A DNA stretch of 64,000 bases from Acidobacteriaceae bacterium (lineage in GTDB: Bacteria > Acidobacteriota > Terriglobia > Terriglobales > Acidobacteriaceae). The position numbers and the translations under genes were made by a program. Positions 34,175 through 63,551 of this stretch are shown here, piece by piece (within the stretch, counting starts at the first letter, position 1; each line of letters opens with the position of its first letter). The stretch lies in contig DAIDGW010000220.1 of assembly GCA_027452245.1 (NCBI GenBank), forward strand, positions 62,001 through 126,000, read 5' to 3'. A model generated the notes under the pieces. It ran no database searches and had not been told where the DNA came from. It saw only the letters and a program-made list of their open reading frames with translations.

Positions 34175-34549
34175 CCGTTACTTCAACGCTCGAACTCACG
34201 CGCGACGCTCTGATTTCGTGATCCTGACGCCTACGTTTTCTCCAGCCGCTGAGGGATCTGCCTGCAATAGATCCATTCAGTGCCCATAGCTTGCCGCGCT
34301 AAGAAAAACCAACAGCAGCATCTTGCTCGCACATACGTACGTGCCGCTGGTAACCATTGCCCGTAACTGGTTGATTTCAACCACTATGGCTCAAATCACT
34401 CATCCAGATTCCTGCAACTTTTCCTGCCCGTGCGAGTTCCAATCAGTAGGTCCCGAGAAATCGAGGAGACCGGAAACAAAAAGCATCACGGCCTGCTTCG
34501 AGATCGGATCTGAGATTTCAAAGATCGACGGTCCGGGACGGAGGTGAGT

Positions 34550-35230
34550 ATGCGATACCTGAAATACTTCGCGCTGCTGGCGGTGGTGGTGATGCTTCCG
34601 TTGACGTACTCGCAAGCGCAAGTCTCGGTGGGCATCGGAGTTGGTCCCGTCGGAGCCTACATTGGCGCGCCGCCGGTCTGCCCCTACGGATACTACAGTT
34701 ACTATCCTTACGCCTGCGCACCCTACGGCTACTATGGCCCGAATTGGTTTGTGAATGGTGCCTTCATTGGTGCTGGGCCTTGGTACAACGGATGGGGAGG
34801 CGGTTGGGGCGGTTGGGGTTGGGATCATGATGGCTGGAGAGATGGTTGGGGCCACGATGGCTGGAGAGATGGCTGGGGTCACGACGGATGGCGAGGCGGT
34901 TGGGGACATGATGGCTGGCACGGTGGCTGGAACCATGGCGGAGCATGGGCTGGGGGCGGCAACGGACGTGGCTGGGCTGGTAACGGCTTCCACGGCAACC
35001 ATCCGATCTATGGTCAGGGATATCGCGGTGGCGCCATGCACGCCTATAACGGCGGATTCCGCGGCGGGGCTGGATTCCACGGCAACGCTGGCTTCCGCGG
35101 CCCAGCTGGAGGCGGATTCCACGGAGGTGGCTTTCACGGTGGAGGCGGCTTCCACGGCGGAGGAGGGTTCCACGGTGGCGGTGGCTTCCATGGTGGCGGC
35201 GGATTCCACGGTGGCGGCGGTCGCCGCTAA
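34550..35230 (+). CDS. Secreted Gly/Trp/His-rich repeat protein
   Basis: 226 residues; ATG at 34550 with a strong GGAGGTGAG just before it. A signal peptide (YFALLAVVVMLPLTYSQAQ) is followed by a Gly/Tyr/Pro region (CPYGYYSYYPYAC). Next comes a nine-residue repeat HDGWRDGWG about four times (93-130). The C-terminus has FHGGGG repeated five to six times. The composition suggests an extracellular, possibly metal-binding (His) or structural protein. Related Gly/Trp/His-rich proteins occur in soil Acidobacteria, without known function. Confidence 0.75.
   Translation: MRYLKYFALLAVVVMLPLTYSQAQVSVGIGVGPVGAYIGAPPVCPYGYYSYYPYACAPYGYYGPNWFVNGAFIGAGPWYNGWGGGWGGWGWDHDGWRDGWGHDGWRDGWGHDGWRGGWGHDGWHGGWNHGGAWAGGGNGRGWAGNGFHGNHPIYGQGYRGGAMHAYNGGFRGGAGFHGNAGFRGPAGGGFHGGGFHGGGGFHGGGGFHGGGGFHGGGGFHGGGGRR
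34826..34939 (+). repeat. 27-bp tandem repeats encoding HDGWRDGWG
   Basis: About four imperfect 27-bp units, differing mainly at third codon positions, encode residues 93-130 of the secreted protein. Confidence 0.75.
35108..35227 (+). repeat. 18-bp tandem repeats encoding FHGGGG
   Basis: Five to six units of TTCCACGGTGGCGGCGGA type form the C-terminus; prone to slippage and length variation. Confidence 0.75.
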
Positions 35231-35256
35231 TCTGGTCCCCATCAACTAACAGTTGC

Positions 35257-59685: not shown

Positions 59686-59760
59686 GCGGGAGTAGTTCAG
59701 CGGTAGAACGCCAGCTTCCCAAGCTGGATGTCGTGGGTTCAATTCCCATCTCCCGCTCCA
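59686..59760 (+). tRNA. tRNA-Gly (anticodon CCC)
   Basis: GCGGGAG pairs with CTCCCGC; D arm TAGTTCAGCGGTAGAA; anticodon stem CCAGC/GCTGG encloses TTCCCAA, giving anticodon CCC for GGG codons. T arm GTGGGTTCAATTCCCAT, CCA encoded. It is followed 91 bp later by an integrase, the usual arrangement of a tRNA-targeted integration site. Confidence 0.95.
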
Positions 59761-59775
59761 TCCTTTCAACAACTT
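59758..59775 (+). other. Candidate attL of the island
   Basis: From the tRNA CCA into the element. This 18-mer matches the sequence 3' of tRNA-Ala (11175-11192, opposite strand) at 17 positions. Confidence 0.45.
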
Positions 59776-59851
59776 ACAGACATTGACAGAATGGTTGGTC
59801 AGCAGTAGGTTAGCACTGGATGTCACTTTCATGCCCGGAAAGGGTGTCATC

Positions 59852-60994
59852 ATGCGATTGCAGAACGGATATGTAACCCAGAGGTGCGGACGCTGGCGAG
59901 CGCATTACCACCGATACATCACTGATCCGCTGACAGGGGAAAAGAAACGAGAGCAGAGATGTGTCACTTTAGAGCCAGATGTGAAAACAAAAACCAAAGC
60001 GAGGGAAGAACTGAGGAAAATCCTAGTCAGCGAACTAGGATTGAATGCCGATGCTGGCATCACGGTGAAGGGATTCATCAAGCAGCGCTGGCAACCCTTG
60101 AAGGAAGGGAGATGGCGGGATTCCACAGCCCGGACGAACAAAGAACTAATTGCCCGAATCACTGACAGGTTCGGGGATGTGCCACTGCGGAAAATTGACA
60201 ATGTGGAATTGCAGCGCTGGCTTACTGAGACAGCAAAAACCAAATCAGCATCGGTTGTGAAGCATCTCAGGATTTTTCTGCGCTCAATTTTTGCTGAGGC
60301 ACTTGCACAGAAATACATAGATCGTGATCCTGCCCGGTTGCTCATACTCCCCAAGACGAAAGCAGTGATCCGGCCATACCTGACAGTTCAGGAAGTACAG
60401 GCGCTACTCTCGAAAGCTGAGTCTCAGCGTGATCTAACGTTGCTGCGTATTTTGTTCGTGACAGGGATGCGACCTAGCGAACTGCTGGCGCTGCGCTGGC
60501 AGGATGTGAACCTGTCAGATGGAACTCTCACGCTGAATCAGACGATCTATAGGGGCAAGATTCGGCCATTCACGAAAACGACTGAGGAAGGGGAAGTGCA
60601 GAGGCTTGCGATTCCACAGCAAGCAGTTGATGCGCTGACACAGTGGCACGCTGCGCAGTGGGAGTATGAGGCAAAGGACCGGCATAACGGTCCCGATGAT
60701 TACGTGTTCCCCGCGCCTGACGGTAGTTTTTGGTGGAAGGAGAATTACCAGAGGCGAGTGTTAGCAGTGATTGCCAAAAAAGCAGAGGTTCCGAGGGTAA
60801 ACTTTCAGATCATTCGGCGCACAGTTGCAACGTGGGCAAACTCGCTTGGCACCCTGAAAGACACCCAGACGATCATGCGGCACAAACGAATGCAGACTAC
60901 TCAAGACAATTACGTACAAGCGATTGATGCGACAGTGAAGCAGACACTTGAAAAACTAGATTCAACGTTCAATCCCGCCCTTAGACTTCAGTGA
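59852..60994 (+). CDS. int: Tyrosine recombinase (island integrase)
   Basis: About 380 residues from ATG 59852 (AAGGG upstream; earlier in-frame starts exist at 59783 and 59831). An AP2-like arm-binding N-terminus and SAM-like core-binding domain (WQPLKEGRWRDSTARTNKEL) precede the catalytic domain: Arg in TGMRPSELLALRW (about 206), QIIRRTVAT (about 322; Gln where His is usual), His in MRHKRM (about 342) and nucleophile Tyr in TTQDNYVQ (about 353). It integrates and excises the element at tRNA-Gly. Confidence 0.93.
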   Translation: MRLQNGYVTQRCGRWRAHYHRYITDPLTGEKKREQRCVTLEPDVKTKTKAREELRKILVSELGLNADAGITVKGFIKQRWQPLKEGRWRDSTARTNKELIARITDRFGDVPLRKIDNVELQRWLTETAKTKSASVVKHLRIFLRSIFAEALAQKYIDRDPARLLILPKTKAVIRPYLTVQEVQALLSKAESQRDLTLLRILFVTGMRPSELLALRWQDVNLSDGTLTLNQTIYRGKIRPFTKTTEEGEVQRLAIPQQAVDALTQWHAAQWEYEAKDRHNGPDDYVFPAPDGSFWWKENYQRRVLAVIAKKAEVPRVNFQIIRRTVATWANSLGTLKDTQTIMRHKRMQTTQDNYVQAIDATVKQTLEKLDSTFNPALRLQ

Positions 60995-61051: not shown

Positions 61052-61795
61052 CTAGCGAACCTGAGTCACCCAGCGATTCTGCCCCGCCGTGGCGGATGGC
61101 GGATGCATCGGACGTTGCTGCATCTGCTGCATCTGTATCTGCTGCTGCATCTGTGCGAGTGTCGCCGTTAGTCCGCTTACGTCAGTGGTCTTGTAGTGTC
61201 CGGCTGCAATCTGGGTGTGTGTCCAAACTCGCAGGCCGTGCTTACGGACTAATCGAGAAAAGTACACATCCTCACCGACTCCGCCGTTTTCAGGTGTGAG
61301 CAGTTCATTATCGCCATACTGCCACCTGAACCACGGTCCCTTGGGAATTTCCCGCCACACGGTTTTATGAACCATCAGGACGCCACCGCCCACAGCCTCT
61401 ACTTCGCGGAATGGCGATGCACAGGGTTGCACTGGAGGAAAAAACTTATACCCCGACTCCCAACTCCCGATTCCACAGGTCAGGCCGATAACGTGGTGCT
61501 GGTTTGAATCAGCACTGCTCAGCACATCCAATGGAGTTTGGTTCTGCTGTGGAGGGATGAAATTGTCATTGTCGAACGACAGCAGCCAATCAACACCATT
61601 GTCCCTTGCTAGGCTCAGCGTCAGATTCCGCGCTGCGTCCCAAGGCCGCATCCCGCGAATGGGGACATAGATCACATCAAAGCGGGAATCCCGCGCCATT
61701 CGATAGATGTTCCCACTCAGTTCCGGATTGATCCAATCGCCCCGCTCAGGACCGCACAGGACTGCTAATAACACTTTTTGCTTCGCTTCGCTCAT
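61052..61795 (-). CDS. GT-A glycosyltransferase of the island
   Basis: 247 residues. A DxD-like nucleotide-sugar motif lies in WLLSFDNDNFIPP, and the catalytic-domain pattern EAVGGGVLMVHKTVWREI with GGVGEDVYFSRLVRKHGLRV follows. The tail is Gln/Met-rich (QMQQQIQMQQMQQRP). In mobile elements such enzymes may modify DNA, phage parts or cell-surface sugars; target unknown. Its ATG overlaps the stop of the winged-helix gene (ATGA), and it converges on the integrase. Confidence 0.8.
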   Translation of the reverse strand: MSEAKQKVLLAVLCGPERGDWINPELSGNIYRMARDSRFDVIYVPIRGMRPWDAARNLTLSLARDNGVDWLLSFDNDNFIPPQQNQTPLDVLSSADSNQHHVIGLTCGIGSWESGYKFFPPVQPCASPFREVEAVGGGVLMVHKTVWREIPKGPWFRWQYGDNELLTPENGGVGEDVYFSRLVRKHGLRVWTHTQIAAGHYKTTDVSGLTATLAQMQQQIQMQQMQQRPMHPPSATAGQNRWVTQVR

Positions 61796-62502
61796 TGCGG
61801 TAATCCCTCCAGTCCCTTCCCGTGCTTCGCTTCGATTGCATCCCAGTCGATGCTAGGCTGCTCTGAATTTTGTACAGTGTGAACTCCATTCCCAAGGGTG
61901 GGAATGGACGCTCCGGACAAAGTGGCTACGCCACTCTCAGGCTGTCCCTGATTTTCTAAAAATCCAGCCCCAGCCCGGACTGAGCTAGTTTTTACAGAGA
62001 TTTCTTTTACAGAGCTATCTATTACAAAGCTATGTCCCAAGGGTGGGACTGGCTCTTGTTGATTTTGGGACTGGCTCGCCTCGATTTTGGGACTGGCTCC
62101 ATTCCCACCCTTGGGACTGGCTTTTGCATCTTCCATTCCCGTACTTGGGACTGGCTCATCTCCGCACGTGTCAGTGCCGTGCTGCGCTGTCCACTGATCG
62201 TGATTCAGCACATGGTATTCCGTGCGCTCATAGCGCTGGTTGCTTGCGGCACGTTTCTTACCGCTGCCATTCAGAGGCACCAGCCAGCCGTCCCGCTCTA
62301 AACGTTCAACAGACCGGTATATGCTCGACTTGTTTGCTCCCACGCCAGAAAACCATGTGGCTACGCTGTGACCGTTGAAAAACAGCGTTCGCTTCCCGCC
62401 GTGTGTGATCCGCAGCAGCACAGTCAGCAGCCCGAAGTCGGCGGGGCTCATGTGCTGGCTTTCAAAACATCGCTTTGGAAGTTTTCGCAGAGGGTTAGAC
62501 AT
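61792..62502 (-). CDS. Winged-helix protein, putative replication initiator
   Basis: 236 residues. Residues about 15-90 form a winged helix (MSPADFGLLTVLLRITHGGK, SGVGANKSSIYRSVERLERD, GWLVPLN), similar in kind to replication-initiation and helix-turn-helix proteins of phages and plasmids. Residues 115-175 are low-complexity Pro/Ser/Gln linker; their DNA holds iteron-like repeats out of codon phase and an A/T-rich repeat run. The C-terminus is short. This suggests a lambda O-like initiator with the origin in its gene; a plain regulator is the alternative. Confidence 0.65.
   Translation of the reverse strand: MSNPLRKLPKRCFESQHMSPADFGLLTVLLRITHGGKRTLFFNGHSVATWFSGVGANKSSIYRSVERLERDGWLVPLNGSGKKRAASNQRYERTEYHVLNHDQWTAQHGTDTCGDEPVPSTGMEDAKASPKGGNGASPKIEASQSQNQQEPVPPLGHSFVIDSSVKEISVKTSSVRAGAGFLENQGQPESGVATLSGASIPTLGNGVHTVQNSEQPSIDWDAIEAKHGKGLEGLPQ
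61888..61905. repeat. Palindrome TCCCA-AGGG-TGGGA, three copies
   Basis: ATTCCCAAGGGTGGGAAT at 61888-61905, GTCCCAAGGGTGGGAC at 62034-62049, and the reverse orientation ATTCCCACCCTTGGGAC at 62101-62117. The second and third overlap or adjoin the iteron-like array. Confidence 0.6.
61989..62033 (+). repeat. A/T-rich run of three 15-bp repeats
   Basis: TTTTTACAGAGATTT, CTTTTACAGAGCTAT and CTATTACAAAGCTAT follow each other directly; 33 of 45 bases are A or T. They lie next to the iteron-like array and would suit an unwinding element. They do encode a five-residue protein repeat. Confidence 0.55.
62045..62156 (+). repeat. Iteron-like array of five 10-mers
   Basis: GGGACTGGCT occurs at 62045, 62067, 62089, 62113 and 62147, that is at 22, 22, 24 and 34 bp. 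Copies two and three share 17 bases (GATTTTGGGACTGGCTC). The 22-bp step is not a multiple of three, so the host protein is not repeated and selection must be on DNA. Two turns of helix per step fits protein binding on one face. Confidence 0.7.
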
Positions 62503-62724: not shown

Positions 62725-62925
62725 CTACTGCTGTGCTGTGGTTCGTTCGGTTTCCTGCCGGATAAACTGCTCAACTGCTTCGCGGCCGAATCGCACAATC
62801 GACCGGGCTAACCGCATCGCTGGGAGACGGCCGGATTTCCGCCATCGGCTAATAGTCCGTGGGGTGACTGAAAACATCTCAGCTAATTCAGATGTGGTGA
62901 AAACTTCCTTCTGCTGTGTGGTCAT
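62725..62925 (-). CDS. Excisionase/AlpA-like HTH protein
   Basis: 66 residues from the ATG at 62925, with GGAGG seven bases upstream. The fold (VFTTSELAEMFSVTPRTISRWRKSGRLPAMRL) is the MerR-like excisionase type HTH_17. Such proteins control excision or regulate the integrase in islands. An upstream in-frame ATG (62961) overlaps the previous stop codon in ATGA. Confidence 0.85.
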   Translation of the reverse strand: MTTQQKEVFTTSELAEMFSVTPRTISRWRKSGRLPAMRLARSIVRFGREAVEQFIRQETERTTAQQ

Positions 62926-62957
62926 TGCAAATCCTCCATCCTTCAGACTTTTTGCTC

Positions 62958-63551
62958 TCATGAATGCCTCTGTGCTGCGAGTGCTGCTGATTCTTCGTCA
63001 ATGTCTTGCTGTGTCAGGCCATACCCTGATTTCCGTTGCACTCGCGGTTTACTCGGCTGGTGGAATCTGATCGGCTGATACCGCAGATCACGCTGTGAGT
63101 CAGGCGAGAATCCCGGTATCTGCTCAGGGTGTGGTCCCAGCGCCGTAACACCAGTGCTGCTGCCGAAATAATTTCCAAACGAATCCGGTACCTCGCCGTT
63201 TCGGTACTTTTCAGCAAAGGCCAGATCAGCCAAGATGCGCTGCTCGCAATTCGATGGTGGTGGTGTAGATGGTTCCGGTTCTGAGGCAGAGACAGATGGC
63301 TGCTCTGGGGCAGGGGACTCCTCTGGGGCAGGTTGTTCGATCTTGGGCAACCCCAGCCGCGCCCTTAGCTGTGTCTCATCTGCAATGCCTAGATATTGGC
63401 CGATTGCTGCCAGCGAGATTGAAACCGTTTGTTCAAAGTAGTCAGTTGCTGGTGTGCGCTCAACAGCTAGCTTGCCTGCCGCGATGTGTCTGTCTAGCGT
63501 TCGCAGTGAGATGCCAATCATTTTGGCCGTCTGTTTTCGTGTGAATGTCAC
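62958..63551 (-). CDS. Island HTH protein with Pro/Glu-rich linker
   Basis: 197 residues from GTG 63551 (AGGAG six bases upstream; a longer start exists). An N-terminal HTH (FTRKQTAKMIGISLRTLDRHI) and Pro/Glu/Ser-rich linker (PAPEESPAPEQPSVSASEPE) are followed by an uncharacterised C-terminal region (SGYGLTQQDIDEESAAL). It may be a regulator of the leftward operon. The stop overlaps an ATG of the next gene. Confidence 0.7.
   Translation of the reverse strand: MTFTRKQTAKMIGISLRTLDRHIAAGKLAVERTPATDYFEQTVSISLAAIGQYLGIADETQLRARLGLPKIEQPAPEESPAPEQPSVSASEPEPSTPPPSNCEQRILADLAFAEKYRNGEVPDSFGNYFGSSTGVTALGPHPEQIPGFSPDSQRDLRYQPIRFHQPSKPRVQRKSGYGLTQQDIDEESAALAAQRHS

Follow-up and report, generated by a model that had tools for sequence, protein, structure and literature searches.

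A candidate replication origin inside a winged-helix gene on an integrated island of an Acidobacteriaceae bacterium

Can the gene for a putative replication initiator also carry the origin on which its product would act? This question is raised by a leftward gene near the end of the DNA studied here, a 64-kb stretch of an Acidobacteriaceae genome that we refer to as the window. An initial annotation had noted iteron-like and A/T-rich repeats within the coding sequence of this winged-helix gene and had compared them with the origin in the O gene of phage lambda, proposing that the surrounding island replicates autonomously once excised. Here we examined the repeats, their independence from the protein code and their fate in related genes.

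The winged-helix gene and its island

The gene (61792..62502, minus strand) is an intact ORF encoding 236 aa, and its description as a winged-helix initiator-like gene is based on this ORF, an AlphaFold model and homology to two genes from the same bacterial family. A winged helix is predicted for residues 12-108 (encoded by 62179..62469, minus strand; pLDDT 78 for the N-terminal domain), followed by a linker at about residues 114-200 and a short tail. No DnaA box within one mismatch was found in the gene or its flanks. Upstream, and within the same leftward gene cluster, lies a gene for an AlpA/excisionase-like HTH_17 protein (62725..62961, minus strand; Pfam 2.4e-12, phrog_66 1.2e-9), while the next gene, for a phage-type glycosyltransferase-like protein (61052..61795, minus strand; phrog_1574 3e-7, phrog_34859 1.4e-4), is translationally coupled, its start overlapping the stop of the initiator-like gene (ATGA).

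A tRNA-Gly (CCC) gene (59686..59760, plus strand), the sole Rfam match, provides the insertion site of the island and is followed by the gene for its tyrosine integrase (59783..60994, plus strand; Pfam Phage_integrase 6.4e-18, phrog_1 1.3e-56). The candidate attL (59710-59778) is 80% alike over 69 nt to a candidate attR beyond the window (68757-68825; L005 9258-9326), and this integrase and tRNA setting supports the earlier placement of the winged-helix gene within an island. The same island also contains, beyond the window end, a 61-bp direct duplication (window 65857-65978; L005 6358-6479) and a serine recombinase gene (window 66281-67057; L005 6782-7558), so the island may be composite. Near its right end, again beyond the window, the candidate island also contains a tRNA-Ser gene (L005 8490-8581).

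Dyads and an A/T-rich block in the linker-coding DNA

Exact copies of GGGACTGGCT start at 62045, 62067, 62089, 62113 and 62147, and these five copies with their spacing of 22, 22, 24 and 34 bp are just as originally reported. Only one more exact copy occurs outside the array in the whole window, and when up to one mismatch is allowed there are 14 sites against 4.0 expected (0/100 shuffles), far above chance; GGGACTGGCT is also the top-repeated 10-mer within 160 bp in the 64 kb scanned. What had been missed is the dyad nature of the repeat. On the gene strand the motif reads CCAGTCCC, which is a single arm of a 22-bp dyad of the form CCAGTCCC-N6-GGGAATGG, so that the five copies are half-sites of inverted repeats, three of which are near-perfect or perfect. 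In gene order, all on the minus strand, dyad sites 1 (CCAGTCCCAAGTACGGGAATGG, 62133..62154) and 2 (CCAGTCCCAAGGGTGGGAATGG, 62099..62120), each of 22 bp with 7/8 arm pairs, are followed by half-sites 3 (62089..62096) and 4 (62067..62074), both CCAGTCCC, and by site 5, a partial dyad (CCAGTCCCACCCTTGGGACATA, 62031..62052) adjoining an A/T-rich block. Site 6, a perfect 22-bp dyad (CCATTCCCACCCTTGGGAATGG, 61886..61907), lies on the far side of this block; the extent first assigned to the array, 61989-62156, therefore holds for the five copies but leaves out this sixth site. The sites are near-identical to one another and all fall 350-620 bp into the coding sequence.

The A/T-rich block consists of about three 15-bp tandem repeats (61985..62033, minus strand), and tandem-repeat finding (TRF) together with duplex stability marks it as a candidate unwinding element. 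TRF reported 2.8 copies of a 15-bp repeat with 85% matches at 61992-62033, and 33 of the 45 bases in 61989-62033 are A/T, equalling the maximum for any 45 bp in the window, which confirms the three A/T-rich repeats as real. The position of array and block in the part of the gene that encodes the linker, for which disorder is predicted, is likewise supported.

Two lines of evidence indicate that the pattern is not a by-product of the protein. First, the GGGACTGGCT copies, at gene positions 349, 383, 407, 429 and 451, use all three reading frames, so the frame argument put forward for them holds. Second, we swapped codons among synonymous positions while keeping the protein, and found that the 50 repeated 9-mers of the window gene compare with a shuffle mean of 3.8 and a maximum of 17 (0/5000 as high). 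The repeats were thus never reproduced, consistent with the proposed upkeep of the pattern at the DNA level, and the protein alone is unable to explain it. The gene contains four 22-bp dyads against 0.22 by shuffling (2/5000), the one outside the linker being probably due to chance. Duplex stability over 45 bp reaches its minimum in the gene at the A/T block, a result matched by 1/3000 synonymous shuffles; the 15-bp repeats of the block are in frame, and here frame alone proves nothing, whereas the codon-shuffle test does. Six loci contributed 118 ORFs of 150 aa or more to a screen for protein-independent DNA repetition, in which the window gene ranked first (z 15.4), a relative from genome G018 second (z 11.3) and an ORF covering the array beside a relative in G082 third (z 9.9). 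Elsewhere in the window, 27-bp and 18-bp tandem repeats (34817-34918 and 35107-35220) lie in an ORF (34400-35245) with a modest DNA-level repeat excess only (z 4.3).

Relatives with arrays inside and outside the gene

A profile search across the bacterial family of the window returned two relatives, in G018 (L006 9567-10451) and G579 (L024; L032 9109-10092). Compared with the window protein, that of G018 is about 31% identical over 115 aa and that of G579 27% over 192 aa, and the two share 34% identity over 306 aa. Both belong to mobile elements with an integrase, that of G018 being about 19 kb with a tRNA-Ser and that of G579 about 39 kb with a tRNA-Met. When the site layout of the three genes was lined up after the fact, all had the order winged helix, dyad or half-sites, A/T block and further dyads, although the site sequences differ from those of the window (CCTGTCCG...CGGACTGG in G018; CC(A/G)TTCCC...GGGAATGG in G579). 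Site spacing is 34/24/22/22 in the window, 33/21/21 in G018 and 31/21/21/21 in G579; the A/T block contains 3 x 15 bp and 2.2 x 13 bp tandem repeats in G018 and G579, and the sites flanking it are 81 bp apart in both. Both relatives therefore keep the layout while differing in linker residues and in site sequence, which answers a check proposed in the initial annotation; a linker retained without its repeats was found in neither. We found just these three members of the intragenic class.

In both relatives nearly all sites are in frame and their spacing could partly be held by the protein, so the DNA-level evidence there is that of the synonymous shuffles. The repeat excess was 58 against a mean of 8.6 for G018 (0/5000) and 22 against 7.9 for G579 (18/5000), the latter weaker than the other two. 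No dyad in the G579 gene passed the 22-bp threshold, its arms being 23 bp apart or carrying a one-base deletion. In each of these genes too the least stable 45 bp coincides with the A/T block (1/3000 shuffles for G018, 0/3000 for G579).

The AlphaFold model of the G018 protein predicts a winged helix, a disordered segment at 109-199 and a helical C-terminal domain, and the part predicted to be disordered is the part whose DNA carries the sites and A/T repeats. A disordered linker would leave its codons free to carry signals acting in cis. The helical C-terminal domain present in G018 and G579 is missing from the window protein. In both relatives a small ORF overlaps the stop of the initiator-like gene (L006 10448-10711; L032 8813-9112; 45% identical), and although these ORFs match no Pfam or PHROG family, they lie where a helicase loader would be expected and are candidates for that role. 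We found no counterpart in the window island, where the glycosyltransferase-like gene sits in this place. Lacking both the domain and the coupled ORF, the window protein may be a reduced initiator or one that needs a helper, or it may be decayed.

Three more distant homologues, L030 (G082), L038 (G642) and L039 (G583), were linked to the family by profile-profile comparison (97.9%) and reciprocal search (E 3e-9 to 1e-4), and a linker is absent from their proteins. Arrays of 22-bp dyads start no more than about 30 bp past the stop codon in L030 and L038, with a TRF period of 22 and scores of 140 and 158. We note these arrays (L030 1885-1984; L038 1043-1151) as candidate phage origins. Both regions appear prophage-like, as judged from neighbouring ORFs read from the sequence alone (an integrase and a large terminase near L030, a small terminase near L038), and by eye no A/T block was seen beside either array. 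An array of period 11/22 about 390 bp downstream of the L039 gene was too unclear to count. The binding array thus seems able to sit inside or outside the gene.

The protein family has no trusted-score match in Pfam or PHROGs, the best weak PHROG match of the window protein being a primosomal protein (phrog_11896, E 6e-4). In Pfam-A, Phage_rep_O (PF04492) was unlisted at E<=1 for the window protein and at E<=5 for those of G018 and G579, and RepA_N (PF06970) gave no match. The nearest initiator-type profile was HTH_36 (PF13730), with E 0.0011 for L038 and 0.11 for the window protein, and its scores of 12.7 bits for the window and 19.1 and 16.1 bits for outer relatives all lie below the curated cut-off of 25. 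In a fold search, solved staphylococcal RepA_N initiators (4pql, 4pt7, 4pta and 5kbj) came among the higher-ranking structures, with Z 6.8-7.6, but many winged helices of no relation scored equally well, and searches of PDB and BFVD returned generic winged helices, none with E below 0.001. No protein relative was found by tblastn against phage and plasmid records or in scans of viral and genome contigs, and a search of 200 genomes of the family for the same iteron recovered only its own locus. Scanning viral contigs for the iteron pattern gave ten matches in low-complexity repeat proteins or unrelated genes, with no winged-helix relative, and weak profile matches at L004, L025-L029 and L031 proved to be unrelated ORFs.

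A likely intragenic origin and its alternatives

Several known replicons have a similar layout. The lambda iteron, located inside O, is an imperfect inverted repeat of 19 bp, and the lambda origin shares with the window inverted-repeat iterons with TCCC/GGGA cores, an A/T-rich tract beside them and a position in the middle part of the initiator gene (PMC7466680). The window differs in that its dyads span 22 bp, its protein does not match the lambda O family in Pfam at E up to 1 and has no large C-terminal domain, and no homologue of the helicase loader P is present, the next gene being glycosyltransferase-like. The label "lambda O-type" therefore stands as an analogy of layout but not as family membership. 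Staphylococcal pSK41 RepA, of the RepA_N family, likewise has an N-terminal winged helix; the origin occupies the middle of rep, and the linker encoded there is dispensable for function (PMC5703833), but the window protein also lacks a RepA_N-type C-terminal domain. In phage SPP1, the A/T-rich unwinding element of oriL and its direct repeats both lie within initiator gene 38 (PMC6316719); we found no sequence relation to it, and SPP1 has a loader and helicase next door, which the window island does not. The origin of Rhizobium etli p42d also lies inside its initiator gene, repC, where silent changes in an A+T-rich stretch abolish replication (PMC3155836), although repC has no iterons and belongs to another family. 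Among HTH_36 initiators, the N-terminal domain of pPR9 Rep is coupled with its own origin segment (PMC5703833).

Based on these findings, we consider it likely that the array is an intragenic origin, active or recently so, that is bound by the winged helix of its own gene and includes an A/T-rich unwinding element. Dimers of the encoded protein would occupy the 22-bp dyads and the half-sites, which follow one another at intervals of about two helical turns, and would wrap or bend the DNA; the adjacent A/T-rich repeats would then open and let the replicative helicase load onto the element in its excised, circular form. By analogy with lambda ori, SPP1 oriL and pSK41 rep, systems for which binding and opening are known, own-gene binding, A/T opening and helicase loading form the most likely mechanism. 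For the window island we infer protein binding, melting, helicase loading and replication alike; its autonomous replication is a hypothesis, as neither the C-terminal domain nor the coupled small gene of the relatives is present. A more specific form of this reading, to which we give limited credence, is that the island encodes a stripped-down initiator of an undescribed family. With winged helix, iterons and unwinding element, but with neither a domain to recruit the helicase nor a dedicated loader, it would open the origin and depend on a helper phage for the loader, and in the course of the family's history the array would have shifted from inside the gene to outside it or the reverse.

The missing domain and coupled ORF, together with att repeats just 80% alike, would equally suit a former intragenic-origin replicon that has lost its C-terminal domain and helicase-loader partner and whose array is a relic. 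This explanation overlaps with the preferred one, which allows for a recently active origin; we regard it as possible yet doubtful, since a neutral relic would erode the perfect dyad and the A/T block, and the ORF is intact with near-identical sites.

It is less likely still that the array is an operator through which the winged-helix protein controls its own operon, setting copy number or lysogeny, with the A/T block incidental. Dyads suit a dimeric repressor, the protein has no C-terminal effector domain, and two promoter-like matches lie upstream on the gene strand, their count being about that of chance. All sites, however, are well inside the coding sequence rather than at a promoter, the arrays of two outer relatives follow the stop codon, and the A/T block recurs in the same place in three genes, where it is the least stable segment beyond codon demand.

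Another reading is that the winged-helix protein binds a centromere-like, partition or incompatibility site and that replication starts elsewhere; iteron arrays can act in partition or handcuffing, and by sequence the protein is unlike any initiator family. We find this improbable, given that none of the island genes scanned looked like one for a ParA-like ATPase, unwinding-type A/T repeats recur, and the relatives are phage-like elements, which need replication rather than partition. A low-complexity repeat of the protein with no role for the DNA has least in its favour and is already contradicted: the in-frame 21-bp spacing in G018 and G579 does give peptide repeats (PVRS..., SPFP...), but the window copies fall in all three frames, synonymous shuffles fail to reproduce them, opposite-strand arms form dyads and the linker is predicted to be disordered.

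Taken together, intragenic origins are already known, and the protein family described here is absent from Pfam and PHROGs at trusted scores; the locus would thus add an undescribed initiator family to the few cases in which the initiator gene contains the origin, and would do so for a host group whose replicons are little studied. The family offers a natural comparison, in which the same winged helix is accompanied by an array either in the linker or just past the gene. Since the site sequence varies while the spacing stays, the emergence of intragenic origins and the co-evolution of sites and protein become directly testable. In addition, the segment provides a compact candidate origin for vectors in bacteria of the host group.
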